A stretch of 51,949 bases of DNA from an uncultured Flavobacteriales bacterium (GTDB lineage Bacteria; Bacteroidota; Bacteroidia; Flavobacteriales; Crocinitomicaceae), in NCBI GenBank assembly GCA_946482515.1, contig CAMLRS010000021.1:1-51949 (forward strand). The letters run 5' to 3'. A model generated the notes under the pieces. The model was given only the letters and a program-made list of their open reading frames with translations. It was not told the origin of the DNA and made no database searches. Shown piece by piece: positions 34,155-51,287 of the stretch; positions within the stretch are counted from its first letter, which is position 1; every line of letters begins with the position of its first letter. A program made the position numbers and the translations under genes.

Positions 34155-35198
34155 TCAATCATCGCCCATACTTCTCAGCTGTCGCTTCACATAGCGTATC
34201 AAACGCGATTTTTTAGGCATTTTGGCGTATTTCTTTTCAAGTTTCACCAACACGCTCATGGCGTTATCATAGCCTTTTTCGTCAACATAATCATTCAGCC
34301 ATTCAAGCATGTCCTGCTCATCTGTTTCGTTCGTTATCTCAGGATCGTCACTTTTTTTATTGGTGAAAGAGATGTTTCCGGCGTCTACAGCTTCATCCAG
34401 GCGTTTTTTGACAGAAGTGACTTCCTTGCCACCCTTACTGGAGCCATGTTGCCAGTCTTTTGGCGATTTCTCGCTCTTTTTACCACCGCCAAATCCACCT
34501 TTGTCCTTACCGAGATCAGAAACGATCATTTCTTTCTTTTCATCGGAGAATGTTTTGAGCGGGTATTCCACCTGCCATTTGCAAAGGAAGGCCGCCTTTT
34601 TGTAGGAATCATTTTCACCTACATCTACGGAGTAATGGACATATCCTTCGTTCTCGCCCTTGGTTTTTTGATTCAAATTGTACAGCTCCCCTTTGACCTT
34701 TTGCTCCACTTTTGCCGAATGGTCAGCATTCGCTTTCGTGGAAATAGGATAGAGATTTTCTTCGATTCCAAAACCGCCGAGATCGTGATTCAATAAATGA
34801 CCGCGAACGACATTCGCATTGGTATGCTGGCCACGGATCCATTGCATCCAGTAGGAGTTCACTCCGGTGGCACTTCCTTTTACCGGATTGTCCGGATCGA
34901 GCTTCGCCGTCATTCCTTTGCCCACCAGGCGATCGGCACCGTTTGCATGTACAGTGCCGGTTGTATGTTTTATTTCTGTTTTCAGCTGTGCAACCGGTGA
35001 GTTATTCCCGGCAACCTCTTTGAGCTGCGCCAGCTGACTGGCCTGCGGACTGTTATCGGCCATATCCTGTGCGGCTTTCAATTGAAGTGCTGCTTCGGAG
35101 GTGTTTTCACCGAATAGTGAAACCTGCTCGGGATTCCGTTTTTCCCGTGATTCAGCGGTGGAGTCGTTTGTAGTGTTTTTCTGCGTGTGTGTTTGCAT
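34155..35198 (-). CDS. Putative contractile-injection-system effector with His-Me-type nuclease domain
   Basis: A 347-residue protein with two parts. Residues 35-75 carry the ADNSPQ/QLAQL repeat-like segment (QDMADNSPQASQLAQLKEVA) found ahead of eCIS-associated proteins and DUF4157 proteins in Bacteroidota. Residues 80-215 resemble a nonspecific nuclease toxin: VRGHLLNHDLGG then ENLYPISTKANADH, with His134, Asn137, Asn148 and His160 as candidate metal or catalytic residues. The C-terminus is Lys/Gly-rich, then helical. There is no signal peptide. The ATG at 35198 is preferred over an upstream GTG. No injection-system structural genes or immunity gene are adjacent, so it is an orphan. Confidence 0.6.
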   Translation of the reverse strand: MQTHTQKNTTNDSTAESREKRNPEQVSLFGENTSEAALQLKAAQDMADNSPQASQLAQLKEVAGNNSPVAQLKTEIKHTTGTVHANGADRLVGKGMTAKLDPDNPVKGSATGVNSYWMQWIRGQHTNANVVRGHLLNHDLGGFGIEENLYPISTKANADHSAKVEQKVKGELYNLNQKTKGENEGYVHYSVDVGENDSYKKAAFLCKWQVEYPLKTFSDEKKEMIVSDLGKDKGGFGGGKKSEKSPKDWQHGSSKGGKEVTSVKKRLDEAVDAGNISFTNKKSDDPEITNETDEQDMLEWLNDYVDEKGYDNAMSVLVKLEKKYAKMPKKSRLIRYVKRQLRSMGDD

Positions 35199-35335
35199 GT
35201 GGTCCGGTCTGTTTTCGGATATGGTGAAAATAATGTGTTCAGACACAACGATTAACCGTGGAAATACGCAAATGAAAGAACCGGTGGTTTTCCGTAATTC
35301 GTATGCAGGCAGCCGATTTTTCAGTAATTTTCGGC

Positions 35336-36943
35336 ATGCATCATTCTTTACTGTTCATATTGATTTTGCTGCTGGTTGTGTTCATTCTGATCATGCTCGG
35401 GCAGCGATTGGGGATTTCGTACCCGATTTTCCTCGTAGTAGCCGGACTGGCATTGGGTTTTATTCCCGGCGTTCCGCTGATTTCCATCGATCCGGAGCTG
35501 ATCTTCCTGATTTTTCTGCCACCCTTGTTGTATGAATCGGCCTGGAAAACTTCGTGGAATGACTTCTGGAAATGGCGACGGCCGATCTCGCTCCTGGGCT
35601 TCGGGTTGGTGATCTTTACGTCCTATGCGGTGGCCTTGTTTGCCGAAAGCACCATTCCGAATTTTACGCTGGCATTGGGTTTCCTGCTGGGCGGAATTGT
35701 ATCGCCGCCGGATGCCGTTGCCGCTTCTTCTGTGCTGAAAGGCGTGAAAGTGCCGCGTCGCGTGTTGACCATTCTCGAAGGTGAAAGTTTGGTGAACGAC
35801 GCCGCCAGTTTGATCGTTTTCCGGTTCGCATTGGTTGCCGTTGTAAGCGGCACATTCGACTTCGGAACTGCTGCTGCCAGCTTTTTCCTGGTAACCATTC
35901 TCGGAATTCTGATCGGACTGGCCGTAGCGCACGTTTTCTATCTGATCCACCGCTTTTTGCCGACATCGCCGAGCATAGACACCGCATTGACCTTTATGGC
36001 GCCGTATTTCATGTATTTAGCCGCCGAATCGTTCCATTATTCAGGTGTGATGGCTGTCGTTTCCGGTGGTTTGTTCCTGTCGTACCGCTCGCACGAAATT
36101 TTCAATCACCAGTCGCGTATTCAGGCATACGGCGCATGGAACACAGTCGGCTTCGTGCTCAACGGATTGGTATTTATCCTCATTGGACTGCAATTGCCGT
36201 CGATTGTGAATGATCTGGGCGATTATGCGCTTTCGGAAGCGGTTACGTATGCTTTGCTGATCAGCGCGTTGACAATCGTTCTGCGCATCGTCTGGGCCTA
36301 CATTTTTGCTTTTGTTCCACGCATATTGAGCCGGAAAATCCGCGAAACGGAAAGCTCGCCGGGTTGGGAAGGTCCGCTGGTGATAGGCTGGGCCGGAATG
36401 CGGGGTGTTGTTTCGCTGGCTTCGGCGCTTTCCGTACCGGTGATGCTCAGCTCAGGAGAAGCGTTCCCGCAACGCAGCCTGATCCTGTTCATTACGTTTG
36501 GAGTGATTTTCATTACGCTCGTCGTGCAGGGATTGACCTTGCCGGCTGTGATCCGTTTTACCAAAATCCGTGATATGGACGGCGTGATGCCGGAAGAAGA
36601 ACAGGAAACGGGCATTAAGCTGAGACTCATGCAGGCTTCGCTGAGACGACTGAAAGAACATCACCTGAATGCGGTCAACGAAAGTGAGCTGGTGGAATGT
36701 CTGCAGCAGCAGCTGGAAAACGACATTTCTGTTTTTGCCCGCAAGATGGAATCGCTCGAATGTGCGACGTGTGACCGCATGGAGCGCGATCGCTACAAAA
36801 CAGTGCTGCAGGATCTGTTTCATGTTCAGCGGCAGGAATTGGTACAGTTGCGGAAAGAGCGGCTGTTCTCGGACGATGAGCTGCGGAAACAGGAAGCGTT
36901 TCTCGATTTAGACGAAGCACGGATTAGTAAGACAGCTTATTGA
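35336..36943 (+). CDS. Na+/H+ antiporter, CPA1 (NhaP-like) family
   Basis: An inner-membrane cation/proton exchanger of about 535 residues with 12 or so helices, followed by a cytosolic C-terminal region of about 130 residues. The conserved FLPPLLYESAW, LLGGIVSPPDAVAA and the ion-binding ESLVNDAASLI motif mark CPA1. The tail contains Cys pairs in LECATCDRME. An earlier in-frame ATG at 35303 exists; MHHSLLFILILLLVVFILIM at 35336 gives the cleaner first helix and follows a TAATTTTC near-match to a -7 element. Role: pH and sodium homeostasis. Confidence 0.9.
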   Translation: MHHSLLFILILLLVVFILIMLGQRLGISYPIFLVVAGLALGFIPGVPLISIDPELIFLIFLPPLLYESAWKTSWNDFWKWRRPISLLGFGLVIFTSYAVALFAESTIPNFTLALGFLLGGIVSPPDAVAASSVLKGVKVPRRVLTILEGESLVNDAASLIVFRFALVAVVSGTFDFGTAAASFFLVTILGILIGLAVAHVFYLIHRFLPTSPSIDTALTFMAPYFMYLAAESFHYSGVMAVVSGGLFLSYRSHEIFNHQSRIQAYGAWNTVGFVLNGLVFILIGLQLPSIVNDLGDYALSEAVTYALLISALTIVLRIVWAYIFAFVPRILSRKIRETESSPGWEGPLVIGWAGMRGVVSLASALSVPVMLSSGEAFPQRSLILFITFGVIFITLVVQGLTLPAVIRFTKIRDMDGVMPEEEQETGIKLRLMQASLRRLKEHHLNAVNESELVECLQQQLENDISVFARKMESLECATCDRMERDRYKTVLQDLFHVQRQELVQLRKERLFSDDELRKQEAFLDLDEARISKTAY

Positions 36944-36954
36944 AAATTAGCAAT

Positions 36955-37030
36955 GATTAATTATGAATTATCAAGGGCCGAAAAATTGAAACACCCTTAA
37001 TAATTAATCATTTATAATTCATAATTAATC
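36955..37030. repeat. AT-rich inverted repeat between converging genes
   Basis: GATTAATTATGAATTAT (36955-36971) and its exact complement (37014-37030) form a perfect 17-bp stem, with CAAGGG and CCCTT inside. The word AATTATGAATTATCAA recurs at 51206. It may terminate both the antiporter and the CorC-like gene. Confidence 0.8.
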
Positions 37031-38296
37031 TTGAACGCGGACAATCACTTTGTCGATGCGGGCACCGTCCATATCCACGACTTCGATCTCGAAGTTCATC
37101 CATTGAATGATCTGGCCGGTTTTCGGGATGGAGCGCAATTCGTTCATGACCAATCCGCCGACAGTAGTGTATTTGAGATCAGCGCCGGCTTCTTCGAGCC
37201 CAAAGTGACGGAAGAATTCCGCCAGCGGGTATTGACCGTCGATGAGCCAGGAACCGTCTTCCCGCTCGATAAACGAGAATTCTTCGCTGTAGAAATCGGA
37301 GAAATCGCCCACCAGTGCCTGCAGCAGGTCGTTGAGCGTTACGATTCCCTGCGTTTGCCCGAATTCGTCGGTGATGATGCCGTAGTGAACTTTGGATTCC
37401 TTAAAATTGATCAGCGCTTCGTAGGCTGAAATGTGTTCCGAAATAAACGACGGGCTTGTCATATGCTCAGCCACACTGAAGCCAGGCGAGTCGATGTGAC
37501 GGAACAGGTCTTTCAATAAAACAACGCCGACTATGTGTCCTTTATCCTCGGCATAAACCGGGTAAACGGAATGCATTTCCTTGTTGAGCGTAGCGCGTAC
37601 TTGTTCTTCCGTATCGCTCTGGTGAAGGAAGATCACATCGTTACGGTGCGTCATCAGGGAGCTGATGTTGCGATCGCCGAGGTGGAAAACGCGCTCCACG
37701 ATTGACTGCTCGATTTCCTGTACTTCACCGCCTTCGGTTCCTTCCTGGATGATGGCTTTGATCTCTTCCTCCGTGACTTTGCTATCGGTTGAAGGCTTGA
37801 TGCGGAACAGGCGAATGATCAGATCGGTTGTAATCGTGAGCGACCAGACAAACGGCGAAGTGATCGTCGCAATGATCTTCATCGGTCGAGCCATAGCTTT
37901 GGCAATGGCTTCCGGATTTGCCAGTCCGATGCGTTTCGGAACGAGTTCGCCCAATACGAGGGAAAAGAAGGTGAGTAAACCAACCACTACGACTACGCTC
38001 AGCGTATGTGCATAGGGTTTCAGGGAAGCATAGCCTTCAAAAAAGGCCTGGATGTCGTTGGTGACGTTTTCACCACTGAAAATACCCGTCATAATGCCGA
38101 TGAGCGTAATCCCGATCTGTACGGTCGACAGGAAGCGATTCGGCGCGTGGATGGTTTCCAATGCGGTTTTAGCGTTTTTATCGCCACGCTTGGCTGCCGA
38201 TTCGAGACGTGACTTCCGGGCGGAAACCATGGCGATTTCGGCCATGGAAAACACACCGTTGATGAGAATCAGGATTAATATGATGAGTATCTCCAT
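37025..38296 (-). CDS. CNNM/CorC-family membrane protein (DUF21-CBS-CBS-CorC_HlyC)
   Basis: A 423-residue protein. The N-terminal DUF21 membrane domain (ILIILILILINGVFSMAEIA, about residues 1-190) is followed by two CBS domains (about 205-330; ISSLMTHRNDVIFL and YGIITDEFGQTQGIVTLNDL) and a C-terminal transporter-associated domain (WLIDGQYPLAEFFRHF). Homologues move or sense Mg2+/Co2+ or act in cation efflux. It lies seven bases after the aminotransferase and is co-transcribed with it. Confidence 0.92.
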   Translation of the reverse strand: MEILIILILILINGVFSMAEIAMVSARKSRLESAAKRGDKNAKTALETIHAPNRFLSTVQIGITLIGIMTGIFSGENVTNDIQAFFEGYASLKPYAHTLSVVVVVGLLTFFSLVLGELVPKRIGLANPEAIAKAMARPMKIIATITSPFVWSLTITTDLIIRLFRIKPSTDSKVTEEEIKAIIQEGTEGGEVQEIEQSIVERVFHLGDRNISSLMTHRNDVIFLHQSDTEEQVRATLNKEMHSVYPVYAEDKGHIVGVVLLKDLFRHIDSPGFSVAEHMTSPSFISEHISAYEALINFKESKVHYGIITDEFGQTQGIVTLNDLLQALVGDFSDFYSEEFSFIEREDGSWLIDGQYPLAEFFRHFGLEEAGADLKYTTVGGLVMNELRSIPKTGQIIQWMNFEIEVVDMDGARIDKVIVRVQD

Positions 38297-38303
38297 CCGG
38301 TTC

Positions 38304-39500
38304 TTAAGCTTTTCCCGGGTAGACTTTCAGCGCTTCTTCCAGACATTTCACCGCCTTTTTCAGCGACTCTTTGTTTAGAACGTAAGCGATACGTGCTTCC
38401 TGTAATCCGGCGCCCGGAGTGGAATAGAAACCGTTGGCCGGCGCCATCATCACGGTTTGTCCTTCGTATTCGAATTCTTCGAGCAGCCACTGGCAGAATT
38501 TCTCGGCGTTATCTACCGGGAATTTCGCTACACAGTAAAATGCACCGCTAGGTTTCGGACAGAAAACGCCCGGAATGCTGTTCAGGCCATCAACCATGAT
38601 ATTGCGACGCTCCACGTATTCGGAAACGACATCATCGAAATAAGATTGCGGTGTTTCCAAAGCTGCTTCGGAAGCAACCTGGTCAACAGTCGGAGGAGAT
38701 AAGCGTGCCTGGCCGAATTTCAATGCAGCCGCCATGACTTCTTTGTTCTTGGAAACGAGTGCTCCGATTCGCGCGCCGCACATAGAATAACGCTTCGAAA
38801 CGGAATCGATCATGATCACGTTGTTTTCGATGCCTTCCAGGTTCAGAACGGAGAACGGTTGTGCGCCGTCGTAGCAGAACTCGCGGTACACTTCATCCGC
38901 GAAGAGGAACAGGTCGTGCTTTTTCACGATATCGCGCAGCTGCTCGAGCTCCTGCTGTGAATACAGGTAACCAGTCGGGTTGCCCGGGTTGCAGATCACG
39001 ATTGCTTTGGTTTTCGGCGTGATCTTCGCTTCGATCTCTGCTACCGGCGGCAATGCAAAGCCGGATTCGATGGAAGACGTTACCGGAACCACTGTCAAAC
39101 CAGCTGTTACAGCGAAACCATTGTAATTTGCGTAAAACGGCTCGGGAATGATTACTTCATCGCCCGGGTTACAGGTCGTCATGAATCCGAAAACGAGCGC
39201 TTCGGAACCACCTGTGGTGATGATAATATCTTCGGGATTCACAGGCAAACCGCCTTTCTGGTATGTTGCCGCGAGCTTGTTGCGGTACGATTCAAAACCA
39301 GCGGAGTGGCTGTATTCGATCACTTTATGGTCGAAATTGCGGATCGCTGCCAGAGCCACGGCCGGTGTTTCGATATCCGGCTGCCCGATGTTCAGGTGGT
39401 AAACGGTTTTTCCTGCTTTTTTCGCTTTTTCAGCGTAAGGAACTAATTTACGTATCGGTGAAGCTGGCATGTCAATGGCCTTCTGTGAAATCTTTGGCAT
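38304..39500 (-). CDS. PLP-dependent aminotransferase, class I/II (AspB-like)
   Basis: A 398-residue cytosolic aminotransferase. Visible hallmarks are YHLNIGQPDIETPAVALAAI, the PLP-contacting CNPGNPTGYLYS, the Asp-Tyr-type FADEVYREF, and the Schiff-base Lys in DSVSKRYSMCGARIG. The start is the ATG at 39500. The frame continues 24 codons upstream into the inverted-repeat element, but the -7 element at 39524 lies within that stretch. Substrate (aspartate or other amino acid) is not determined. Confidence 0.92.
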   Translation of the reverse strand: MPKISQKAIDMPASPIRKLVPYAEKAKKAGKTVYHLNIGQPDIETPAVALAAIRNFDHKVIEYSHSAGFESYRNKLAATYQKGGLPVNPEDIIITTGGSEALVFGFMTTCNPGDEVIIPEPFYANYNGFAVTAGLTVVPVTSSIESGFALPPVAEIEAKITPKTKAIVICNPGNPTGYLYSQQELEQLRDIVKKHDLFLFADEVYREFCYDGAQPFSVLNLEGIENNVIMIDSVSKRYSMCGARIGALVSKNKEVMAAALKFGQARLSPPTVDQVASEAALETPQSYFDDVVSEYVERRNIMVDGLNSIPGVFCPKPSGAFYCVAKFPVDNAEKFCQWLLEEFEYEGQTVMMAPANGFYSTPGAGLQEARIAYVLNKESLKKAVKCLEEALKVYPGKA

Positions 39501-39523
39501 AATCCTGTTTGTTTTTAGGATAG

Positions 39524-39531
39524 CAAAAGTA
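39524..39531 (-). promoter_or_regulatory. -7 element of the aminotransferase-CorC operon
   Basis: TACTTTTG matches TAnnTTTG, 23 bases before the ATG. The inverted-repeat element starts only six bases further upstream, so the -33 contact region lies inside the element. Confidence 0.6.
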
Positions 39532-39537
39532 CCTATT

Positions 39538-39732
39538 TCACCACAAAGGAGCAAAGGTCTTTTTTGACGCACTTACTCAGAAAGGGAGCAAAGGCGCTTT
39601 GTTGTTGGGTAGAAAATCGAAATACAAGCCCCAATTGAATGCATTGAATTTGGATTATGACTTAAACCGGTATTCCTTTGCTTCCTTAACAAACACAGCA
39701 AAGCAATTATCTCTTTGCTCCTTTGTGGTGAG
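39538..39732. repeat. MITE/REP-like inverted-repeat element, copy 4
   Basis: 195 bp with perfect 19-bp ends TCACCACAAAGGAGCAAAG and its complement, and inner GGGAGCAAAGG/CCTTTGCTTCC. Orientation is the same as copy 3. It separates two divergent genes and abuts both promoters. Confidence 0.9.
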
Positions 39733-39759
39733 AAGCATGAATTTTCAGACCTTTGCGCT

Positions 39760-40506
39760 ATGAAACACTATGCGATTTTTCTTGTTCTTGCATCGATTTT
39801 CCTGGCTGGCTGTGAGTCGGCGCCAAAGTCTATGAAGAACGAACGGCCGGTAGCTCATGAGACTGAAGAGCCTGTGCAGAAACACGATCCGGAACAGCTC
39901 ATCAATGGAAAAGATACGCTGGTGAAAGTGGATGCTTACAACCCGGACATTTACTGGGACCTGAAATATGCCACCGCCGATAATTTCATGAAGCGGGTAT
40001 TGTACGATACGCTGAAAGCCGTTTACATTCAGAAAGACATTGCTATGCGTTTAGCTGAATGCCAAACCATGCTTTCCAAAACCGATCCAAACCTGCATTT
40101 GCTGGTCTACGATGGTGTTCGTCCGCTTTCCGTGCAGTGGGAAATGTGGAACGCGCTCGATTCTATTCCACCGGCCGAACGCGGGAAATTTGTGAGCAAT
40201 CCGCAAAATGGCAGCGTACACAATTACGGTGCGGCTGTCGACATTACCATTTGCAACGCCAAACGTCAGCCGCTCGATATGGGAGCCGGCTACGACGATA
40301 TCCGCAAGATCGCTTACCCGAGCCTGGAGGCGCAATTTCTTGCTTCCGGTGAATTGACACGCCAACAGGTTGCCAACAGGGCTTTACTAAGAAGAATCAT
40401 GCGCTCGCAGCGTTTCAGCAATATTCCGACTGAGTGGTGGCATTTCAATGCCTATCCGAGAGCGGTGGCGAAAGGGCGGTATGAGGTGATGACGAAGGAG
40501 ATGTAG
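39760..40506 (+). CDS. D-Ala-D-Ala dipeptidase-like lipoprotein (VanX/DdpX, M15D)
   Basis: A 248-residue zinc dipeptidase predicted to cleave D-Ala-D-Ala from peptidoglycan turnover. A lipoprotein signal (FLVLASIFLAGC) places it in the periplasm on a membrane. Zinc and catalytic motifs are VHNYGAAVDITI (His and Asp of SxHxxGxAxD) and EWWHFN (Glu and the third zinc His); LVYDGVRPLSVQWEMW holds the substrate-binding Arg. The start is the ATG at 39760, after GACCTTTG, rather than a codon inside the repeat element. No van genes are near, so a recycling role is more likely than resistance. Confidence 0.9.
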   Translation: MKHYAIFLVLASIFLAGCESAPKSMKNERPVAHETEEPVQKHDPEQLINGKDTLVKVDAYNPDIYWDLKYATADNFMKRVLYDTLKAVYIQKDIAMRLAECQTMLSKTDPNLHLLVYDGVRPLSVQWEMWNALDSIPPAERGKFVSNPQNGSVHNYGAAVDITICNAKRQPLDMGAGYDDIRKIAYPSLEAQFLASGELTRQQVANRALLRRIMRSQRFSNIPTEWWHFNAYPRAVAKGRYEVMTKEM

Positions 40507-40550
40507 ATTAAACTGCAGAGAATGCAGTGTTTTACGCGGTAAAATTTTAT

Positions 40551-40576
40551 TTCCTATTATTGCAGTAGTACTTCTG
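40551..40576 (+). promoter_or_regulatory. Promoter and putative operator of the Rrf2 gene
   Basis: TACTTCTG (40569-40576) is one base from TAnnTTTG. The word TTCCTATTATT (40551-40561) lies between the expected -33 and -7 regions, where a bound regulator would block transcription. The same word occurs before the sulfur operon at 41064. Confidence 0.5.
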
Positions 40577-40588
40577 TTTTTCATTTAT

Positions 40589-41044
40589 ATGATCCCTAAA
40601 CGCTCCAAATATGCTATCAAAGCTTTAACTGCCCTGGCGAAAGTATATCGCGACAAGCAGCATTTGTCCATTGCAACCATTGCCGAGCAGGAGCGCATTC
40701 CCCGGAAATTCCTCGAAGCGATCCTGCTTCAGTTGCGCAATGAAGGTCTGGTGGGCAGTAAAATGGGGGCAAACGGCGGCTATTTCCTGGTCAAACATCC
40801 CGATGAGATCATGCTGAGCGCGATCATTCGTTCTACCGGAGGACCGATTGCTTTGTTGCCTTGTGTGAGCTTAAATTTCTACGAAGAATGTATCGAATGT
40901 CCGCATGAAGAGCTCTGCGGATTACACGAAGTGATGCTCGAAGTACGCGAAGCCAGCATCCATATTTTATCCAAGACCAGCCTGGCTGATATAATTTTGC
41001 GTGAAAAAAAGCTCTTCCGAAAATTTGAAAACACCCGTAAATAG
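40589..41044 (+). CDS. Rrf2-family transcriptional regulator
   Basis: A 151-residue winged-helix regulator. The HTH and wing occupy about residues 1-80 (SKYAIKALTALAKVY, IPRKFLEAILLQLRNEGLVG, MGANGGYFL). A Cys cluster lies at about 92-112 (LPCVSLNFYEECIECPHEEL, then CGL), as in Fe-S or redox-sensing Rrf2 members. It sits directly before the sulfate-assimilation operon, so control of cysteine biosynthesis (as CymR does in Firmicutes) is likely. Whether it binds a cluster or responds to a cysteine-biosynthetic complex is unknown. Confidence 0.88.
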   Translation: MIPKRSKYAIKALTALAKVYRDKQHLSIATIAEQERIPRKFLEAILLQLRNEGLVGSKMGANGGYFLVKHPDEIMLSAIIRSTGGPIALLPCVSLNFYEECIECPHEELCGLHEVMLEVREASIHILSKTSLADIILREKKLFRKFENTRK

Positions 41045-41063
41045 GGTTTTTATTTGATTTTAA

Positions 41064-41090
41064 TTCCTATTATTCCGATAGGAGTAGTGG
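41064..41090 (+). promoter_or_regulatory. Putative Rrf2 operator before the sulfur operon
   Basis: TTCCTATTATT (41064-41074) repeats the word in the Rrf2 promoter. CCTAT and ATAGG form a short dyad around TATTCCG. It lies upstream of the -33 element, a position more typical of an activator. Confidence 0.45.
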
Positions 41091-41109
41091 AAAATAATTA
41101 GCGATTTCC

Positions 41110-41140
41110 TTGCAGGAACAAAATCGGGCATCTTACTTTG
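41110..41140 (+). promoter_or_regulatory. Promoter of the sulfate-assimilation operon
   Basis: TTG (41110-41112), a 20-base spacer, then TTACTTTG (41133-41140, one base from TAnnTTTG). Transcription would begin about 20 bases before the leader reading frame. Confidence 0.7.
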
Positions 41141-41167
41141 CATCGTCAAAACAGGATAACTAACAAG

Positions 41168-41239
41168 ATGAATACACAGAGATTTCATAACACCATGTGT
41201 AGCTGGATGATGTACGCAAAAGCGAACGCGGGAGGGTAA
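41168..41239 (+). CDS. Leader peptide of the sulfur operon (23 codons)
   Basis: A short reading frame from ATG 41168 to TAA 41237-41239. It reads MNTQRFHNT, then MCSWMMYAK, then ANAGG. Four of 23 codons are Met, and one Cys and one Trp lie in the same cluster. It begins just after the promoter and ends 26 bases before a strong terminator. Its last codons (CGGGAGGGT) can pair with the 5' arm of that terminator. This is the form of a translated attenuator responding to charged Cys or Met tRNA. The stop overlaps ATG in TAATG, opening a four-codon frame M-C-R-H. Function is inferred. Confidence 0.6.
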   Translation: MNTQRFHNTMCSWMMYAKANAGG

Positions 41240-41278
41240 TGTGTAGACATTGAGGAAATGAGTTGAACCCTTCTCCCG
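41229..41278 (+). promoter_or_regulatory. Predicted antiterminator pairing
   Basis: AGGGT (41233-41237) can pair with ACCCT (41267-41271), and CGGG (41229-41232) with CCCG (41275-41278), leaving TCT bulged. This nine-pair structure uses the 5' arm of the terminator at 41266, so the two folds exclude each other. Confidence 0.5.
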
Positions 41279-41296
41279 AACGAGAAGGGTTTTTTT
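41266..41296 (+). terminator. Intrinsic terminator at the head of the sulfur operon
   Basis: AACCCTTCTC and GAGAAGGGTT form a perfect ten-pair stem with loop CCGAAC, followed by TTTTT. It ends exactly at the first in-frame ATG (41297) of the next gene. A full terminator between promoter and operon implies regulated read-through. Confidence 0.88.
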
Positions 41297-41320
41297 ATGC
41301 CAAAACGAAACAGAAAGACA

Positions 41321-42199
41321 ATGAAACAAATCTATATCAACGAATCAGGACCGGAAGTATCGGCAGCGATCTACGGATTCTGGAGATGGGCGGCAGAAGA
41401 TTTCACCGCCGGCAATTACTTCTCCGAAGTAGTGGCTTTTACCCGCGAGCTGGGCATTACAACCTACGACCTCAGTCCGCGGTATGCGTATGGCGAAGTG
41501 GAACGCCAATTTGGACTGCTGCTGAAAGACGGCACGTTGAAGCGCGACGAGCTGGTGTTGTCGACGAAAGCAGGAATCCGCGAATTTTCAGGAAGTCACG
41601 GCTCCGGATTTTTCTACGATCTGAGTCCACAGCACCTTACCAAAAGTCTCGAAGAGTCGCTGAAACGCCTGCAAACGGATGTGATCGATATTTTCATTCT
41701 CGAACACCACGATCATCTTTACAACTTCGAGCAAACGGCTTCCACCTTGCTGAAGCTCCAGCGTGCGGGCCGGATCCGCCACATCGGAGTGTCGAACTTC
41801 AATGTGTTCCAGCAGCGTTTGCTGTCGACCTACCTGCAACAACCGATCATTACCAATCACCTCGAGCTGAACCTGCTGGAAACGGCAGCGCTGAACGATG
41901 GTCGACTGGATTTCATCCGTGAACAGCACAGCAAGCCAATGGCATTTTCGCCACTCGCAGATGGTCGCATTTTGCTGGGCGAAGACGAGCAGGCTTACAA
42001 AACGCGTCAGGCGTTGGCTGCAGTGGGCAAAAAATACGAAGCCAATGTGGAACAGACAGCTGTAGCCTGGCTCCATCGTCTCGGCGCGCTTCCGATCATT
42101 GGTAGCAAGGAAAAACGCCGCATCCAGAATGCCGCTACAGCCCATACAATCGAATTATCACACGAGGACTGGTATTTCCTCTACAACACCACAAAATAA
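41321..42199 (+). CDS. Aldo/keto reductase, first gene of the sulfur operon
   Basis: A 292-residue NAD(P)H-dependent oxidoreductase of the AKR superfamily (YdhF-like). The tetrad residues can be placed: Asp in TTYDLSPRYAYG with the following Tyr, Lys in VLSTKAGI, and His in FILEHHDHLY. The strand RIRHIGVSNFN and IIGSKEKRRI near the end are cofactor-site segments. The ATG at 41321 (MKQIYINESG) is preferred because the one at 41297 touches the terminator T-run. The position suggests a role in sulfur metabolism, but the substrate is unknown. It is followed after five bases by the sulfite reductase. Confidence 0.85.
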   Translation: MKQIYINESGPEVSAAIYGFWRWAAEDFTAGNYFSEVVAFTRELGITTYDLSPRYAYGEVERQFGLLLKDGTLKRDELVLSTKAGIREFSGSHGSGFFYDLSPQHLTKSLEESLKRLQTDVIDIFILEHHDHLYNFEQTASTLLKLQRAGRIRHIGVSNFNVFQQRLLSTYLQQPIITNHLELNLLETAALNDGRLDFIREQHSKPMAFSPLADGRILLGEDEQAYKTRQALAAVGKKYEANVEQTAVAWLHRLGALPIIGSKEKRRIQNAATAHTIELSHEDWYFLYNTTK

Positions 42200-42204
42200 T
42201 TGCC

Positions 42205-44325
42205 ATGCAGAGCTTTCGAACAGAATTGGAACAAGCCGTTTCGCTGAAAAAAGCCATCGTTGAGAAAGACGTCCTTGAATTGGGGCAGAAGATCGCAGCG
42301 TTTAAAAACGGCTCGTTGAATGAAGATAAATTCCGTGCACTGCGCCTCGCTCGTGGTGTTTACGGCCAGCGCCAGCAGGGTGTGCAAATGATCCGTATCA
42401 AATTACCTTTCGGAAAGGTCACGATAGCCCAGCTGCGCCGTATCTGCTCCGTGAGCGACGAATACAGTACCGGCCATTTGCACATCACGACCCGCCAGGA
42501 CATTCAGATTCACTATGTGAGCCTTGATCGCACGCCGCAATTGTGGGCCGATCTAGAAAAAGACGATGTCACACTGCGCGAAGCCTGCGGAAATACGGTT
42601 CGGAACGTTACGGCCGGCGCAACAGCAGGTATCGACCCGAAGGAAGTGTTCGACGTGGCACCTTATGCAGATCTGACTTACCGTTACTTTTTGCGCAAGC
42701 CGTTCGGTCAGGAGCTGGGACGAAAGATCAAGATCGCGTTCAGCTCGGGCGAATCAGATGATGCCTATGCGTTTATCCACGACTTCGGCTTCATTCCGAA
42801 GATCAAAGACGGCGTGAAAGGTTTTAAAGTGCTGGTTGGTGGCGGCCTGGGAGCACAGCCTTTCCTGGCACAGGTCGCTCACGAATTTTTGCCTGCCGAA
42901 GCACTGATTCCGTTCGTGGAAGCTTCGATCCGTGTGTTTGACCGTCACGGAGAGCGCAACAGCCGCAACAAGGCGCGCATGAAGTACCTCATTTCGAAAA
43001 TCGGGCTTGAAGCGTTCCTGCAATTCGTAGCAGAAGAGCAGAAAGCCGTTCAGTACGATGCTGAAAGCGACTTTCAATTGGTTGAACAGCTCACAGATAC
43101 AGAAGTCCTGGCATCCGGACGTTCGCTGGAAGATGTGATCAGCAGCTCCACCGATCAGCAGTTTACCGAGTGGCTGAAAACGAATGTGATTGCTCAGAAA
43201 CAATCCGGTTTTGTAGCAGCTTACGTGAAAGTGCTGCTGGGGAATTTTACGACAGCTCAGGCGCGTTCACTGGCGGAACTGGTTGAACACTACGCTGCAA
43301 ACGACATACGTTTCACGATCGACCAAAGCATTTTGCTGAAGTTCATTCGCCCGGAGAATCTCGAAGCGCTTTACCTGGGATTGAAAGCGATCAATCTGGC
43401 CGACAGCGGCTATGACAGCCTGGCAGATGTAACAGCCTGCCCTGGAACGGATACCTGCAACCTCGGGATCTCCAATAGTACGGAAGTAGCCCGCGTGCTC
43501 GAAAACTTTATCCGCGAAGAATACCCGGAGCTGATCTACAACAACGATATCAAAATCAAGATCAGCGGCTGTATGAACTCCTGTGGTCAGCATGGACTGG
43601 CGCACATCGGTTTCCACGGCAGCTCGATGAAAGTCGACAAAGCAACGGTTCCTGCCTTGCAAGTACTGCTGGGCGGAGGAAGAACAGGCGATGGTTTTGG
43701 TCGGATTGCGGAGAAAGTGATCAAGCTGCCAAGCAAACGCGTGCTGGATATCATCCGCTACCTGCTGAACGATTACCTCGAATTGCGCAACGACGATGAG
43801 CTGTTCAACGAGTACTACGATCGCCAGGGCAATAAATACTTCTACGATCTGCTGAAGCCGCTGGCCGATACGACAGCACTCACAGAAGCGGATTTCATCG
43901 ACTGGGGACAGGACGAAGCGTTCAAAACCGCAATCGGAGTGGGCGAGTGTGCCGGCGTGATCATCGACTTAGTAGCAACGCTGCTTTTCGATGCCGATGA
44001 AAAGCTCGATGCGGCGCAGACATCCTTCGCTCAAAACAGCTTTGCAGATGCCGTTTACCACGGCTACGCTGCCGGGATTCACACGGCGAAAGCCCTGTTG
44101 CTCGATCAGAAAGTGCACTGTAACACGCACAACGGCATTATGGCGGATTTCGACAAGCACCTCGGCGAAACCTTCCGGTTCAATGGTCATGGAACCTTCA
44201 GTGGTTTCCTGCTTCAGATCCGCGAACAGCAAGCCGATGCAGCATTCACAACGCGCTACCTGGAAAGCATAGCGCAGTTTGTGAACGAAGCAAAAACCTA
44301 CCGCGAACAACGGGCGGCGGTTTAA
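42205..44325 (+). CDS. Siroheme sulfite (nitrite) reductase with C-terminal HEPN-like domain
   Basis: A 706-residue assimilatory reductase that converts sulfite to sulfide (nitrite is also possible for the fold). Ferredoxin-like and catalytic halves are seen in LHITTRQDIQIHYV, CGNTVRNVTAGATAGID and the cluster/siroheme ligands Cys412-Cys418 (ACPGTDTC) and Cys456-Cys460 (SGCMNSCGQHG). Beyond about residue 550 comes a helical extension (SFADAVYHGYAAGIHTAKAL) of the HEPN type, unusual for CysI. No CysJ flavoprotein is present, so a ferredoxin or other donor is likely. The sulfur operon context argues for sulfite. Confidence 0.9.
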   Translation: MQSFRTELEQAVSLKKAIVEKDVLELGQKIAAFKNGSLNEDKFRALRLARGVYGQRQQGVQMIRIKLPFGKVTIAQLRRICSVSDEYSTGHLHITTRQDIQIHYVSLDRTPQLWADLEKDDVTLREACGNTVRNVTAGATAGIDPKEVFDVAPYADLTYRYFLRKPFGQELGRKIKIAFSSGESDDAYAFIHDFGFIPKIKDGVKGFKVLVGGGLGAQPFLAQVAHEFLPAEALIPFVEASIRVFDRHGERNSRNKARMKYLISKIGLEAFLQFVAEEQKAVQYDAESDFQLVEQLTDTEVLASGRSLEDVISSSTDQQFTEWLKTNVIAQKQSGFVAAYVKVLLGNFTTAQARSLAELVEHYAANDIRFTIDQSILLKFIRPENLEALYLGLKAINLADSGYDSLADVTACPGTDTCNLGISNSTEVARVLENFIREEYPELIYNNDIKIKISGCMNSCGQHGLAHIGFHGSSMKVDKATVPALQVLLGGGRTGDGFGRIAEKVIKLPSKRVLDIIRYLLNDYLELRNDDELFNEYYDRQGNKYFYDLLKPLADTTALTEADFIDWGQDEAFKTAIGVGECAGVIIDLVATLLFDADEKLDAAQTSFAQNSFADAVYHGYAAGIHTAKALLLDQKVHCNTHNGIMADFDKHLGETFRFNGHGTFSGFLLQIREQQADAAFTTRYLESIAQFVNEAKTYREQRAAV

Positions 44326-44345
44326 ACAAATTAAAACGAACAAAG

Positions 44346-45107
44346 ATGAAAATTCAGACACCCAAAATAACATTGATAGGAGCAGGACCGGGCGATCCGG
44401 AGCTGATCTCCGTAAAAGGACTGCGTACGCTTGGCGAAGCGGATGTGATCCTCTACGATGCACTGGTGAGCGAAGATCTGCTTGATTTTGCTCCCAAAGC
44501 GAAAAAGATCTTCGTGGGCAAACGCAAAGGCATCAAGGCTTATTCACAGGACGAAATCAATCGCCTGCTTGTTGCCGAAGCTTTGCAACACGGACATGCC
44601 GTCCGGCTCAAAGGCGGCGATTCCTTTGTATTCGGACGCGGTTACGAGGAAATCGAATATGCGCAGTTCTTCGGTGTGGAAACGCAGGTAATCCCTGGAA
44701 TTTCCAGCTCTATTTCCGTTCCGGCACTGGCCGGGGTTCCGGTTACACACCGCGGAGTGAGCAATGGATTTACGGTTATTACGGCGGTACTTTCCGACGG
44801 CGAACTGAATCCTGAGCTGTACAAGCTCGCGCAGCTCGGCACAACGACAGTCATCCTCATGGGCTTGTCGAAGCTGTCCGAAATAGCAGCGATCTACCGC
44901 GCAAACGGCAAAGCCAACGAAGCAGTAGCTGTGATCAGCAACGGTTCGCTCCCCAATCAGCGAACAGTAACGGGTACGATTCAGAACATCGCAGCCCGTG
45001 TGCAGCAGGAAGGCATTCCCGCACCAGCGGTGATCGTTGTCGGCGAAGTGGTACGGCTTAAAGTACCGGAAAAACAGAACAATTATTTCTCCAACTTTTT
45101 AAACTGA
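44346..45107 (+). CDS. cobA: Uroporphyrinogen-III C-methyltransferase
   Basis: A 253-residue SUMT that makes precorrin-2, the precursor of siroheme, from uroporphyrinogen III and two SAM. Signatures are LIGAGPGDPELISVKGLRTL, VRLKGGDSFVFGRGYEE and VIPGISSSISVPALAGVPVT. It directly follows the siroheme reductase. The next steps (oxidation and iron insertion) can be done by the Met8-like domain encoded at 47979. Confidence 0.95.
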   Translation: MKIQTPKITLIGAGPGDPELISVKGLRTLGEADVILYDALVSEDLLDFAPKAKKIFVGKRKGIKAYSQDEINRLLVAEALQHGHAVRLKGGDSFVFGRGYEEIEYAQFFGVETQVIPGISSSISVPALAGVPVTHRGVSNGFTVITAVLSDGELNPELYKLAQLGTTTVILMGLSKLSEIAAIYRANGKANEAVAVISNGSLPNQRTVTGTIQNIAARVQQEGIPAPAVIVVGEVVRLKVPEKQNNYFSNFLN

Positions 45108-45136
45108 TGTTGAATTAATTAAGCACAACTGTTGAA

Positions 45137-48001
45137 ATGAAAACTACCCTAAAATTGCTGGTATTCCTGCTGCTGTCGTCATCGGCGCTGGCACAGAATA
45201 CTTTACTACAGCTCTCCGGAACGCTGATTGACAAATTTTCCGGTGAGCCCATTTTCGGCGGAACGGTCCGGATCAAAGAGTCCGACGTAGCCGCCGTAAC
45301 AAATGAGGACGGCCGTTTCGAGCTGAAAACACCTAACAAATTCCCGTTCACTATCGAAATTTCAGTGAGCGGCTACAACACTGCGGAATTCATCGTGGAA
45401 AACGAGAAAACATCGTTGCAATTACAGCTCGAGCCACAAGTGATCGTAGTCGATGAGGTCGTTGTTTCCGCCTCACGTGTTTCCGAAAGTGTGATCAAAT
45501 CACCGGTGGCGATCGATAAGCTCGATATCCAAACCATTCGGGAGACGCCGTCGCCGACTTTTTACGACGCGATGGAAAATGTGAAAGGCGTACAGATGAC
45601 GACATCCAGTCTCAACTTCAAAGTACCGAATACGCGTGGATTCAACTCACCGAACAACTTCCGCTTTATGCAGCTGGTAGACGGTGTGGACCTGCAGGCG
45701 CCCACACTCGGTGTTTCCATTGGAAATGCGATGGGTCCGAACGAGCTCGACATTCAGAGCGTGGAAATTATTCCCGGTTCGTCTTCGGCGCTTTACGGGA
45801 TCAATTCCATCAACGGACTGGCCAACCTGCAAACGAAAGATCCGTTCAAAAAACAGGGCGTGAGCGTGTACCAGCGCATCGGTGTGAACCACGTTGATGG
45901 CAAAGACCACGATCTCAGTTTCCTGAGTGAAACAGCGTTCCGCATTGCCGGTTCGTTCGATTCGTCGAGTCGTTTTGCCTACAAGTTCAACGCGTCTTAT
46001 TTCAAAGGAACCGACTGGGTTTCGTCGAATACAACCGATCAAAACCCGTTCCAACTGAAATCGAGCAACCCGAAATTCCCGCAGTTCGATTCACCGGCCA
46101 ACAATCCGGCCTACGATGCCTGGAACCGTTACGGCGATGAGCGCAACAACAACGTTTCCGTTCAGGTAACCGATCTGGAGGGCAAAACGCAAACTTTCAA
46201 TGTGCGTCGTACCGGCTACTGGGAGAAAGATCTTGTCAATCCGGAGATCGAGAACATCAAGCTCGACGTCGGTTTGTACTACAAGCTCGGGAAATCGTCG
46301 TTGATTTCCTACAACTATCGCCTGGGGCAAATGGATGGTGTTTTCCAGCGCGGAAACAAAATCCAGCTCAACGATGTGTTGCTGCAAAGTCATGCTCTCG
46401 GACTCACAGCCGGCAAACTGACGGTAAAAGCGTATTTCAATTCCGAAAATACCGGGAATTCCTACAATCTTAAGCCACTGGCGGATAACCTCGATCTGAC
46501 GTTCCGTTCCAACAGCTCGTGGAAATCGGCTTACCAGAACGCTTTGCAAACGGCCATTACCAACGGACAGGATTGGGTGAGTGCGCACAATTCTGCACGT
46601 GCAGCCGCAGATGCTGGTCGTCCGCAGCCCGGTTCAACCGATTTCGAACGCAATCGCAATACTATCATCGGTATCAACAACTGGGATCACAAGACACTTG
46701 TAAATGGTGCGCCTGAAACCGGTGGTGCTGCTCTGATCCAGCAAAGCCGCATGTATCATGGCGAAGCGCAGTACGACTTTTCGGAGCTAACGGGCAATGC
46801 AGTAAACATCCTGGCCGGAGTCGATGGTCGTGTGTACGAAGTCATTCCGGACGGAAACAACTTTGTGGACTTCAGTCGCCCGATTGCCGAGCGCGCACAG
46901 CCTGGAGGCAACAACGTACACTACACGAAATTCGGCGGATTCGTACAGGCCAGCAAAGAAGTATTCGACAACAAATTGAAATTCGTAGCGTCGCTGCGAT
47001 ACGATAAAAACCTCGATTTCGAGGGCAAGTGGAACCCGCGCGTGGCCGTAGTGTTCAGCCCGACAAAAACTTCCGCTTTCCGGTTGTCGGCACAAAACGG
47101 CTTCCGTTTCCCGTCGCTGTTCGAAGCGCTTTCCTATGTGAACAACGGAAACGTGCGTCGGGTAGGAGGATTGTCCAAAGTGAACGAAGGACTCGGATAC
47201 CTGGAGAATTCCTACACGCTAACATCCGTGGATGCTTTTACGGCTGCCATCAACGCCGATGTAGCAGGCGGATTGACAAAAGACGAAGCCATCAACAAGA
47301 ATAAAAACCTGCTGGTGGTTGCCAATCTCCCAACGCTGCAGCCGGAGCAGGTAAAAGCCTTCGATTTTGGTTACAAAAACGTATTCCTGAACAACAAAGC
47401 GGTCATCGACTGGGATGTGTATTTCAACATCTTCACCAGCTTCCTCGGACAGGTCGAAGTAGCCGTTCCGACAACCGATGTGGTGGGAACCGATAGCTCG
47501 GCTTACGATATGACCGATCGTGCGAAACAGGTGCGCTACCGCGTGTACACCAATGCCCGTAACACGTACTTCAGCTACGGCTCATCGCTGCGCCTGAGCT
47601 ACAACTTCTACAAGCTGTACTCGATCTCGACGAATATCAACTTCAACGACTTCGAAGCGAAAGAAGCAAACGACATTTTCATCACTGGCTTTAACACGCC
47701 GCGCTGGTCAGCCAATATCCAGTTCGGAAACCGCGAGATCGTGAAAAACTTCGGGTTCAACATCGTGTGGAAATGGCAGAATGCATATACCGGGGAAAGT
47801 CCGCTGGCAAATGGTCGCGTGAGCGCCTACCAGACCTTCGATGCGCAGATCTCTTACAAGATCCCACAGATCAACTCGGTGTTCAAACTCGGAGGAACAA
47901 ACATCTTCAACAAGCGCTACATCCAGTACGCAGCCGGCCCGACAATCGGCGCTTTGTATTACTTAAGTATCACGTTTGATGCAGGATTTAAACGAAAATA
48001 A
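45137..48001 (+). CDS. TonB-dependent outer-membrane receptor in the sulfur operon
   Basis: A 954-residue outer-membrane transporter. A signal peptide (KTTLKLLVFLLLSSSALA) is followed by a CarboxypepD_reg-like beta-sandwich (about residues 25-105), a plug domain (VVVSASRVSESVIKSPVAID, VKGVQMTTSSLNF, IIPGSSSALYGINSINGLAN) and a 22-strand-size barrel ending in YYLSITFDAGFKRK. It is not a SusC type with a SusD partner. Its place between cobA and the siroheme/permease fusion suggests uptake of a sulfur source too large for porins, such as a sulfonate or sulfate ester. The substrate is not readable. The last 23 bases overlap the next gene. Confidence 0.9.
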   Translation: MKTTLKLLVFLLLSSSALAQNTLLQLSGTLIDKFSGEPIFGGTVRIKESDVAAVTNEDGRFELKTPNKFPFTIEISVSGYNTAEFIVENEKTSLQLQLEPQVIVVDEVVVSASRVSESVIKSPVAIDKLDIQTIRETPSPTFYDAMENVKGVQMTTSSLNFKVPNTRGFNSPNNFRFMQLVDGVDLQAPTLGVSIGNAMGPNELDIQSVEIIPGSSSALYGINSINGLANLQTKDPFKKQGVSVYQRIGVNHVDGKDHDLSFLSETAFRIAGSFDSSSRFAYKFNASYFKGTDWVSSNTTDQNPFQLKSSNPKFPQFDSPANNPAYDAWNRYGDERNNNVSVQVTDLEGKTQTFNVRRTGYWEKDLVNPEIENIKLDVGLYYKLGKSSLISYNYRLGQMDGVFQRGNKIQLNDVLLQSHALGLTAGKLTVKAYFNSENTGNSYNLKPLADNLDLTFRSNSSWKSAYQNALQTAITNGQDWVSAHNSARAAADAGRPQPGSTDFERNRNTIIGINNWDHKTLVNGAPETGGAALIQQSRMYHGEAQYDFSELTGNAVNILAGVDGRVYEVIPDGNNFVDFSRPIAERAQPGGNNVHYTKFGGFVQASKEVFDNKLKFVASLRYDKNLDFEGKWNPRVAVVFSPTKTSAFRLSAQNGFRFPSLFEALSYVNNGNVRRVGGLSKVNEGLGYLENSYTLTSVDAFTAAINADVAGGLTKDEAINKNKNLLVVANLPTLQPEQVKAFDFGYKNVFLNNKAVIDWDVYFNIFTSFLGQVEVAVPTTDVVGTDSSAYDMTDRAKQVRYRVYTNARNTYFSYGSSLRLSYNFYKLYSISTNINFNDFEAKEANDIFITGFNTPRWSANIQFGNREIVKNFGFNIVWKWQNAYTGESPLANGRVSAYQTFDAQISYKIPQINSVFKLGGTNIFNKRYIQYAAGPTIGALYYLSITFDAGFKRK

Positions 48002-49499
48002 CAGCGAAGTAGCAGTGATCGCTGAAAGCAGCGCCGGGAACGAATTGTTCCCGGTGTTTCTGAAAGCCAATCAGCTTTCCGTTCTGTTGATCGGTGGTGG
48101 CAATGTGGCCCTGGAAAAGCTTCAGGCGCTGCTGTTTAATTCGCCCGGTTCGCAGGTAACGGTGGTTGCCGATCGTTTTTCAGAGGAATTTGTTGCTTTT
48201 GCTGAGCAGCGACCTGGTGTCGAGTTGGTCGAAGACCGTTTTCACGAACGTTACCTCGACGGACAGCAGCTGGTCATTTCAGCCGTCAACAGCCTCGAAA
48301 CCTCTGCAGAAATTCGCGAGAAAACAGCTGATAAAGGCATTTTGTACAATGCAGCCGATAAGCCCGAATTGTGCGATTTCTACCTCGGATCTGTCGTTTC
48401 CAGGGGCAACCTGAAGATCGGGATCTCGACCAACGGGAAATCACCAACGATGGCCAAACGCCTGAAAGAAGTGTTGCAGGAAGAGCTGCCACACGAGCTC
48501 GATCAATCGCTGGAAAACCTTCACCGTCTGCGTTCCCACCTGAAAGGCGATTTTCGGGAGAAAGTGCAGGAGTTGAACAAAGTAACAGCCGTTCTGAACC
48601 GGAAGAAAAACCAGCCATGGTACCAGTTCTCCTTTCGCAGAGTGCTGGGCTACGCCGGAGGCGTTCTGGCGATCATGCTGGCCGGACATTTATTGTTCAC
48701 GCTCGTTCCGTTGTCGTCGATCTGGAGTACCGCTTCGGAAATGGTCGGCTCGCTCGATGTGACGTTTCTGTATTTCATGCTCGGTGGCTTCATCGCTCAG
48801 ATGATCGATGGCGCATTGGGAATGGCATATGGCGTGAGTGCTTCGACCTTTCTGCTGTCGTGTGGGATTTCGCCGGCCGTGGCCAGTATGAGCGTCCATA
48901 CGTCGGAGATTTTCACCAGTGGCGTTTCCGGATTCCTGCACCTGCGCTTTGGGAACGTGAACAACAAATTGTTTCGCACGATCCTGATTCCGGGTGTAGT
49001 AGGAGCGATTGTAGGGGCCTATATCCTGACTGAATTTGAAAACTACAACGACTACATCAGGCCGGCAGTCGGGTTGTACACGCTCATCCTCGGCGTTATC
49101 ATCGTGTGGAAAGTGGTGCGCAAACGCGTCAACCGGAAAAAAGTGAAACATGTAGGCTGGCTGGCAACGGCCGGCGGTTTCCTCGATGCCATTGGCGGTG
49201 GCGGCTGGGGACCTGTGGTTTCATCTACGCTGATCGCCCGCGGTAAAAATCCACGGATCATCATCGGCTCGGTGAACCTGGCGGAATTTTTCGTTTCGCT
49301 GGCGAGTTCGTTCACGTTTTTCACGCTCATCGGCGGACAGCACTGGCAGGTATACACCGGTCTGATTCTCGGTGGCGTTTGTGCCGCACCTATTGCTGCT
49401 TATTTATCGAGCAGGCTCAATGTCAAAGCCATGATGCTGATGGTCGGCATTATCGTGATCATCGTCAGCCTGCGTATTATCATCATGACATTTATCTGA
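47979..49499 (+). CDS. Fusion: Met8-like siroheme synthase domain plus TauE/SafE permease
   Basis: A 506-residue fusion. Residues 25-210 match precorrin-2 dehydrogenase/ferrochelatase (Rossmann loop VLLIGGGNVALEKLQAL, catalytic-Asp region YNAADKPELCDF with Asp127, GISTNGKSPTMAKRLKE). Residues 220-506 are a TSUP (TauE/SafE) transporter with about eight helices (FIAQMIDGALGMAYGVSAST and GGFLDAIGGGGWGPVVSSTL are the paired family motifs). The N-part completes siroheme; the C-part may import sulfate or export sulfite. The ATG at 47979 is chosen over TTG 47976. It overlaps the receptor gene. Confidence 0.92.
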   Translation: MQDLNENNSEVAVIAESSAGNELFPVFLKANQLSVLLIGGGNVALEKLQALLFNSPGSQVTVVADRFSEEFVAFAEQRPGVELVEDRFHERYLDGQQLVISAVNSLETSAEIREKTADKGILYNAADKPELCDFYLGSVVSRGNLKIGISTNGKSPTMAKRLKEVLQEELPHELDQSLENLHRLRSHLKGDFREKVQELNKVTAVLNRKKNQPWYQFSFRRVLGYAGGVLAIMLAGHLLFTLVPLSSIWSTASEMVGSLDVTFLYFMLGGFIAQMIDGALGMAYGVSASTFLLSCGISPAVASMSVHTSEIFTSGVSGFLHLRFGNVNNKLFRTILIPGVVGAIVGAYILTEFENYNDYIRPAVGLYTLILGVIIVWKVVRKRVNRKKVKHVGWLATAGGFLDAIGGGGWGPVVSSTLIARGKNPRIIIGSVNLAEFFVSLASSFTFFTLIGGQHWQVYTGLILGGVCAAPIAAYLSSRLNVKAMMLMVGIIVIIVSLRIIIMTFI

Positions 49500-49502
49500 A
49501 AA

Positions 49503-50195: not shown

Positions 50196-50227
50196 TTCCC
50201 CCTTTGAAGGGGGACAAAGGGGGATGG
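50196..50227. repeat. CCCCCTTTGAAGGGGG short palindrome, copy 2
   Basis: CCCCCTTTGAAGGGGG, followed by ACAAAGGGGG, starts just after the cysH stop, as copy 1 does after the GH92 gene. It lies inside the sulfur operon, where it may mark an RNA processing or partial termination point. Confidence 0.65.
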
Positions 50228-50298
50228 AAAACCCAATCAAAAATTGAAACAACAACTCCGGAATCTCATTCCGATACACTCTAAAAACAGAACAAAAA

Positions 50299-51198: not shown

Positions 51199-51205
51199 CA
51201 TGTTG

Positions 51206-51280: not shown

Positions 51281-51287
51281 TTGTATA

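Follow-up and report, generated by a model that had tools for sequence, protein, structure and literature searches.

A probable ribosome-mediated attenuator with cysteine and methionine codons ahead of a sulfate-assimilation operon in Bacteroidota

In the trp and his leader-peptide attenuators of Proteobacteria, a short reading frame rich in codons for the product of the pathway precedes an intrinsic terminator, and the antiterminator competing with it is masked when the ribosome stands at the stop codon. In Bacteroidetes, the Bacteroid-trp RNA (RF01692) is presumably an attenuator of trp genes. It is listed in the available part of PMC2864571. For Flavobacterium psychrophilum, the available text of PMC9723704 speaks of 'strong clues' for leader-peptide attenuation upstream of amino-acid biosynthesis operons and describes conserved 5' elements before pheA and hisG; its main text does not contain the word 'sulfate', and 'cysteine' occurs there only for a protease. 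Short open reading frames (ORFs) reminiscent of leader peptides appear in the available text on B. thetaiotaomicron (PMC7366714). As to cysteine, the accessible part of PMC1262725 describes leaders in Actinobacteria that carry Cys codons without a conserved terminator hairpin, and Cys-responsive ORFs of mycobacteria are attributed to Canestrari 2020 in the available portions of PMC9031893 and PMC13236596. The main text of PMC2965389, as available, does not name Bacteroidetes, and the available portions of PMC4833913, PMC10272879 and PMC6429828 contain nothing on a Cys/Met leader element. No Cys or Met attenuator of Bacteroidota, and no account of attenuation control of sulfate assimilation in this phylum, was found in the literature searched, which consisted of main texts, largely of open-access papers.

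The element described here lies in a window of 51,949 nucleotides, the whole stretch of DNA analysed, from an uncultured Flavobacteriales bacterium. Like the Proteobacterial trp and his attenuators, it combines a short leader ORF carrying product codons with a predicted terminator and a candidate antiterminator competing with it; unlike them, it carries Cys together with Met codons, it belongs to Bacteroidota, and a Shine-Dalgarno-like motif just before the leader is found in only 4 of 69 leaders of its kind. In comparison with the trp and his systems, a separate pause hairpin is only suggested here. With the Cys leaders of Actinobacteria and mycobacteria, as far as the accessible texts describe them, leaders of its kind share a short ORF with Cys runs before cysteine genes, Cys-responsive attenuation being reported there and proposed here; they differ from the actinobacterial ones in their strong terminators and predicted antiterminators and in their Met codons. 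Bacteroid-trp is likewise a cis-regulatory element of Bacteroidetes, for another pathway, and the elements described in part for F. psychrophilum come from the same phylum as ours. The features of the leader region are as follows.

40589 to 41044, forward strand: gene for an Rrf2-family transcription regulator (Pfam PF02082, 113 bits)
41066 to 41082, no strand assigned: palindrome CCTA...TAGG, a possible operator, upstream of the promoter
41110 to 41140, forward strand: predicted Bacteroidota-type promoter, TTG at 41110-41112 and TTACTTTG at 41133-41140
41168 to 41239, forward strand: predicted leader ORF, ATG at 41168 and TAA at 41237-41239, 23 codons plus stop
41195 to 41212, forward strand: codon cluster Met-Cys-Ser-Trp-Met-Met, putatively regulatory, read from the sequence, with Cys/Met clusters at the same place in relatives
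41212 to 41227, forward strand: small hairpin between cluster and antiterminator, predicted by folding, a candidate pause hairpin
41229 to 41235, forward strand: predicted left arm of the antiterminator, formed by the last leader codons (fold of 41212-41278 and duplex)
41237 to 41255, forward strand: predicted hairpin 41237-41252 inside the antiterminator, and AGG at 41253-41255 pairing with 41269-41271 (fold)
41265 to 41296, forward strand: predicted intrinsic terminator (stem 41265-41292) and T-run (41290-41296), its 5' arm being the right arm of the antiterminator

The initial annotation had proposed a 23-codon frame with a Met/Cys cluster, and both are present where it placed them; the peptide read from the frame is MNTQRFHNTMCSWMMYAKANAGG. 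With one Cys and three clustered Met codons it is atypical among the leaders; the cluster of the best relative (L001, a Flavobacteriales assembly with 79% identity over the reductase) has the same make-up. The terminator stem, GAACCCTTCTC-CCGAAC-GAGAAGGGTTT, consists of ten Watson-Crick pairs and one G-U pair and has a folding energy of −16.1 kcal/mol, or −16.6 kcal/mol when folded with the ribosome at the stop. The ten-pair stem with its T-run stands as annotated, but not its contact with the next gene: the genes of relatives start at the position aligned to the ATG at 41321, so the aldo/keto reductase most likely begins there and is not touched by the terminator, which ends about 25 nt before that ATG. 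With its 11 pairs, the stem is the longest of 14 terminator-like sites in 35000-51949 (the others have at most 7), and shuffles of that region contain 22 such sites on average as against the 14 of the real sequence.

The nine-pair alternative fold with the terminator 5' arm was also recovered, with a 3-nt bulge. In it, CGGGAGGGT (41229-41237), that is, the last leader codons and the first base of the stop, pairs with ACCC-ttc-TCCCG (41267-41278) at a duplex energy of −14.2 kcal/mol. When a stalled ribosome is assumed, the predicted fold of 41212-41278 is the antiterminator (−17.3 kcal/mol). Placing the ribosome at the stop leaves 41251-41278 with only −2.1 kcal/mol, and the terminator is then predicted to form. 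The entire leader is equalled or surpassed in folding by only 8 of 200 shuffles. Taken alone, the antiterminator is no better than many of its shuffles, being equalled by 13 of 20 and 31 of 100 of them and, as a longer piece, by 17 of 200. If the whole RNA is folded to equilibrium and a ribosome occupies the last Cys codon, the terminator retains a probability of 0.97.

The run of sulfate-assimilation genes in the window starts at 41321, and its members are listed below.

41321 to 42199, forward strand: aldo/keto reductase, first gene of the operon, start placed by alignment with relatives
42205 to 44325, forward strand: sulfite/nitrite reductase-type protein with NIR_SIR domains, NirA-family models being below cut-off
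44346 to 45107, forward strand: tetrapyrrole methylase (PF00590), assigned to the siroheme branch by context
45137 to 48001, forward strand: TonB-dependent receptor, within the sulfur operon
47976 to 49499, forward strand: precorrin-2 dehydrogenase fused to a TauE/SafE exporter, one frame
49503 to 50195, forward strand: CysH, (P)APS reductase, above NCBIfam cut-offs
50299 to 51198, forward strand: CysD, sulfate adenylyltransferase small subunit, above NCBIfam cut-offs

Three peculiarities of these genes may be recorded. The precorrin-2 dehydrogenase, an enzyme of siroheme synthesis, and the TauE/SafE-type exporter are apparently fused, the position of the TonB-dependent receptor amid sulfate-assimilation genes suggests uptake of a sulfur compound or cofactor, and the C-terminal part of the reductase (43981-44145) has a weak match to a HEPN domain (20.2 bits against a Pfam cut-off of 22).

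Relatives were collected by a reductase search, from which the best 80 loci of 572 confirmed were taken, and by drawing 150 genomes from the family of one relative and 395 from its phylum, with a reductase match in 50 genomes of the family draw and 59 of the phylum draw (E <= 1e-100). Of the resulting 182 loci 179 were usable (two had no gene start, one no upstream sequence), and 155 upstream regions were left once near-identical leaders had been removed. As the relatives were gathered by reductase match, the set is weighted to reductase relatives and samples the phylum unevenly. The detector called frames with an ATG start, 8-45 codons and at least three Cys plus Met codons, one of them Cys, within 8 codons, the stop lying at most 70 nt ahead of a hairpin that folds at −6 kcal/mol or better and carries a T-run. 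This T-run and fold detector with its wider Cys+Met rule supersedes an earlier terminator detector that admitted loops of at most 9 only and had called 34 of the 155.

Short frames that carry a Cys/Met cluster and end shortly ahead of a terminator were found in 68 of the 155 non-redundant upstream regions. On shuffled regions the detector called one of 155 in the fourth of ten rounds and none in the other nine, and it called none on the reversed strand. Terminators of any kind occur in 88 of the 155 regions; shuffles have 9-22, and the reversed strand has 30. In 87 of the 155 relatives' regions the detector had no match; some of these loci show a leader that fails a threshold, such as L024 (...INCC...) and L034, which has a GTG start. 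As a control, 181 regions ahead of other genes were taken from the first 80 loci; they gave 37 terminators and three matches, all three at one homologous site. Peptides of the leaders end, for example, in ...MMYCCMQGDN or ...MCMCCWEHSTD or contain ...MMCCCCCMM....

The choice of amino acids was assessed with doublets of all 20, using the 76 of 155 loci that have a terminator of −9 kcal/mol or lower no further than 160 nt from the first gene. Of these 76 leaders, 58 contain a Cys doublet where 1.8 are expected, and 34 a Met doublet where 0.8 are expected; Asn (26 of 76, 7.2 expected) and Thr (15 of 76, 4.9 expected) come next, and the remaining amino acids have z below 4. The in-frame Met codons may be hungry codons or spare start codons. 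Loci that begin with the aldo/keto reductase number 11 distinct ones including the window, and all 11 carry a leader with a Met/Cys cluster and a terminator. Nine of these clade leaders contain CC or CCC, and the window and L001 have a single Cys. Since CC or CCC stands in place of the window's single Cys in most relatives, the general signal appears to be Cys with Met rather than either alone. The same design is seen elsewhere in the phylum in leaders of unrelated sequence. Leader-codon conservation, which the initial annotation had left to be looked for in relatives, is therefore present, and it argues for the reading of the region as a translated attenuator of the sulfate-assimilation operon. 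In a codon-position comparison of six close pairs, 14, 21 and 20 changes fell on positions 1, 2 and 3; without an excess at the third position, this lends no support to purifying selection on the peptide outside the cluster. Short frames ending in runs of 5-6 Cys codons, unlike the usual leaders, were also noticed some 250-470 nt ahead of the reductase in L062 (…QKCCCCCC), L017 (…ACCCCCCSC) and L013 (MCCCCCSC).

The switch was modeled for 69 leaders (the 68 and the window) with a ribosome assumed to cover 14 nt from the A-site codon. The terminator 5' arm was paired upstream with a probability of 0.66 for a ribosome on the last Cys codon and of 0.16 for one at the stop, a contrast that is partly an effect of length, so that the shuffles, at 0.49, are the fair control. 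Against same-length shuffled segments, arm pairing in the stalled state gave a Wilcoxon value of 1.7e-10, the sequences not being independent of one another. Pairing exceeded one half in 63 of 69 leaders at the last Cys codon versus 1 of 69 at the stop. At whole-RNA equilibrium, again for a ribosome on the last Cys codon, terminator probability is above 0.5 in 60 of the 69 leaders; as the terminator is still favoured there, the switch would have to be kinetic, with the antiterminator forming first.

When terminator arms were swapped among 44 leader families, the segments behind the Cys codons paired with their own arms at a mean of −8.84 kcal/mol versus −6.65 kcal/mol for permuted pairs, and 0 of 3000 permutations reached the own-pair mean. 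The own segment was better than over half of the foreign ones in 37 of the 44 families and not in the other 7, and the own arm was stronger than the reversed arm in 38 of 44, with L010 and L110 as exceptions in which the reversed form was as good or better. Against shuffled segments the own pairing prevailed in 36 of the 44. An earlier clustering, which had put 58 of the 69 arms in one of 7 clusters, was superseded by the 44 families; in the 7-cluster version own pairing was still the better, with 0.6% of permutations as low.

Within the clade of aldo/keto-reductase-first loci, the end of the leader is predicted to pair with the terminator 5' arm, with an inner stem present, in all 11 folds including the window. 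The inner stem joins bases after the stop with bases before the terminator in 9 of the 11, whereas that of the window and L001 is a small hairpin. Four of the 11 antiterminators (L090, L110, L113 and L114) beat at least 97 of 100 shuffles, while in the same comparison that of L115 was equalled by 44, the window standing at the 31 given above. Double compensatory changes were seen in none of the six pairs of the outer stem (RNAalifold; covariation term 0.03), so the support for the pairing comes from the comparison between families. Of the pairing proposed for relatives, its prediction throughout the clade and the own-arm preference across families hold up, but covarying double changes within the clade do not appear. 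Predicted hairpins at the place of the candidate pause hairpin range from −2.4 to −11.0 kcal/mol in the 11 loci. A pattern search with the terminator region in the 11 clade genomes returned 56 matches versus 24 for the reversed pattern; among the matches lying just upstream of the reductase operon were all five with at most one mismatch and three with two mismatches.

From these features we infer the following sequence of events. RNA polymerase would start shortly after 41140, and a ribosome would translate the 23-codon leader. With Cys-tRNA, and here probably Met-tRNA too, charged, the ribosome would reach the stop at 41237 and cover the last codons, and the terminator at 41265-41292 would form ahead of the first gene. 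A shortage of charged tRNA would stall the ribosome at 41195-41212 and leave 41229-41235 free to pair with 41272-41278 before the 3' arm of the terminator is made, and the operon would be transcribed; pairing of 41253-41255 with 41269-41271 and the nested hairpin 41237-41252 would help the antiterminator. The leader would thus read Cys-tRNA and probably Met-tRNA as well, and the switch probably activates the use of sulfate once sulfur amino acids become scarce. Judged from the DNA and its relatives, the element is likely to be a sensor of sulfur amino acids that works as a transcription attenuator through the ribosome, in the manner of trp and his.

The same arrangement could arise in other ways. 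The nascent peptide, rather than tRNA charging, could be the sensor: ahead of the same terminator, a Cys/Met-rich arrest peptide would stall the ribosome in response to a metal, to sulfide or some other ligand, or to the redox state. Runs of Cys and Met could bind metals or react with thiols, and Met is indeed enriched together with Cys; however, the families share little outside the cluster and vary in the number and order of Cys and Met, whereas the arrest peptides known to us have fixed sequences, which makes this reading improbable. A metabolite-binding riboswitch or a T-box, which control sulfur genes in other bacteria, is the most remote of the explanations considered: neither in the window nor in the loci of 15 relatives did any Rfam family attain its gathering score, Bacteroid-trp (RF01692) with 0 covariance-model matches included. 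Five sub-threshold Rfam matches were recorded at the leader.

The terminator might also simply end the transcript of the upstream regulator, with the short frame untranslated. Consistent with such a coincidence, the upstream gene of the window is on the same strand, the leaders show no excess of third-position changes, and translation of the frame is inferred. However, shuffling reduces the 68 of 155 real arrangements to 0-1 of 155, Cys and Met stand out among 20 amino acids, and the arrangement is also found where the upstream gene lies on the opposite strand (e.g., L007, L011 and L035), and we consider a coincidence very unlikely. An equally small chance is given to translational or Rho-dependent attenuation with the hairpin playing a minor part, for which the terminator-less Cys leaders of Actinobacteria, as described in the available part of PMC1262725, offer a precedent; against it, strong T-run terminators are several times as frequent as in shuffled regions (the 88 versus 9-22 of 155), and the alternative pairing targets the terminator arm.

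Upstream of the proposed attenuator, the promoter was assigned by the consensus of Bacteroidota promoters. The promoter claimed in the initial annotation fits this type, but a sigma-70-type promoter was searched for at the leader and none was found. Of the 69 leaders, 56 have a T[AT]NNTTTG box in the 150 nt upstream, versus 15.9 in shuffles. The palindrome CCTA-N5-11-TAGG occurs in the upstream regions of 11 of 69 leaders (0.6 in shuffles); its carriers are exactly the 11 aldo/keto-reductase-type loci, and it is absent from the other 58. The Rrf2-family gene exceeds the cut-off of NCBIfam rrf2_super and is far below those of the CymR and IscR models. It is our guess that the Rrf2 protein forms a second regulatory layer by binding this palindrome.

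Other sulfur genes were covered by searching 24 leader-bearing genomes for CysD, CysKM, MetX and CysE and scanning 89 + 30 loci, taken from no more than 30 places per search. Leaders of the same kind stand before cysC-cysD-cysN in at least one genome (L210, MKSRTLRQSVIYSICCMMCCN) and before cysE-cysM in at least two (L232/L326 and L236/L324; MNALKLNTCCLCFCSPRTEAK[HR]CI). The rest of the matches in the scan were three known reductase leaders and five weak ones (four + one) with no gene start behind; among the loci scanned, the upstream regions of metX gave just two weak detector matches, also with no gene start behind. In L023, two Cys/Met leaders with terminators stand in tandem before the reductase, and this genome (G004) has a third leader, the one before cysC-cysD-cysN (L210). 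In 20 genomes where another gene lies closely ahead of the reductase, CysD was recognised in 18 and an Rrf2 relative in all 20, and about 7 kb upstream of the reductase contained no leader except for one match inside a gene. The element is widespread and not universal. In L166 and L172-L174, a gene of about 415 codons on the same strand ends 127-214 nt ahead of leader and terminator, and the attenuator may thus act inside an operon.

For much of Bacteroidota, the data suggest, tentatively and at somewhat less than an even chance, an attenuator of sulfate and cysteine assimilation that has been rebuilt repeatedly, reads Cys- and Met-tRNA in one leader, has Rrf2 as a second layer and integrates the sulfur amino-acid pool. 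The mechanism is a known one, and the input and the lineage are apparently new: if the reading is true, Cys/Met codons would here be combined with an intrinsic terminator in an attenuator of the classical kind, of which we found no description in the literature searched. A codon-level sensor that recurs in unrelated sequences before sulfite reductase, cysCDN and cysEM genes would allow both a regulon and its signal to be predicted from DNA. The element, though unmatched in Rfam, would be testable in culturable Pedobacter, Mucilaginibacter, Chitinophaga and Fluviicola.
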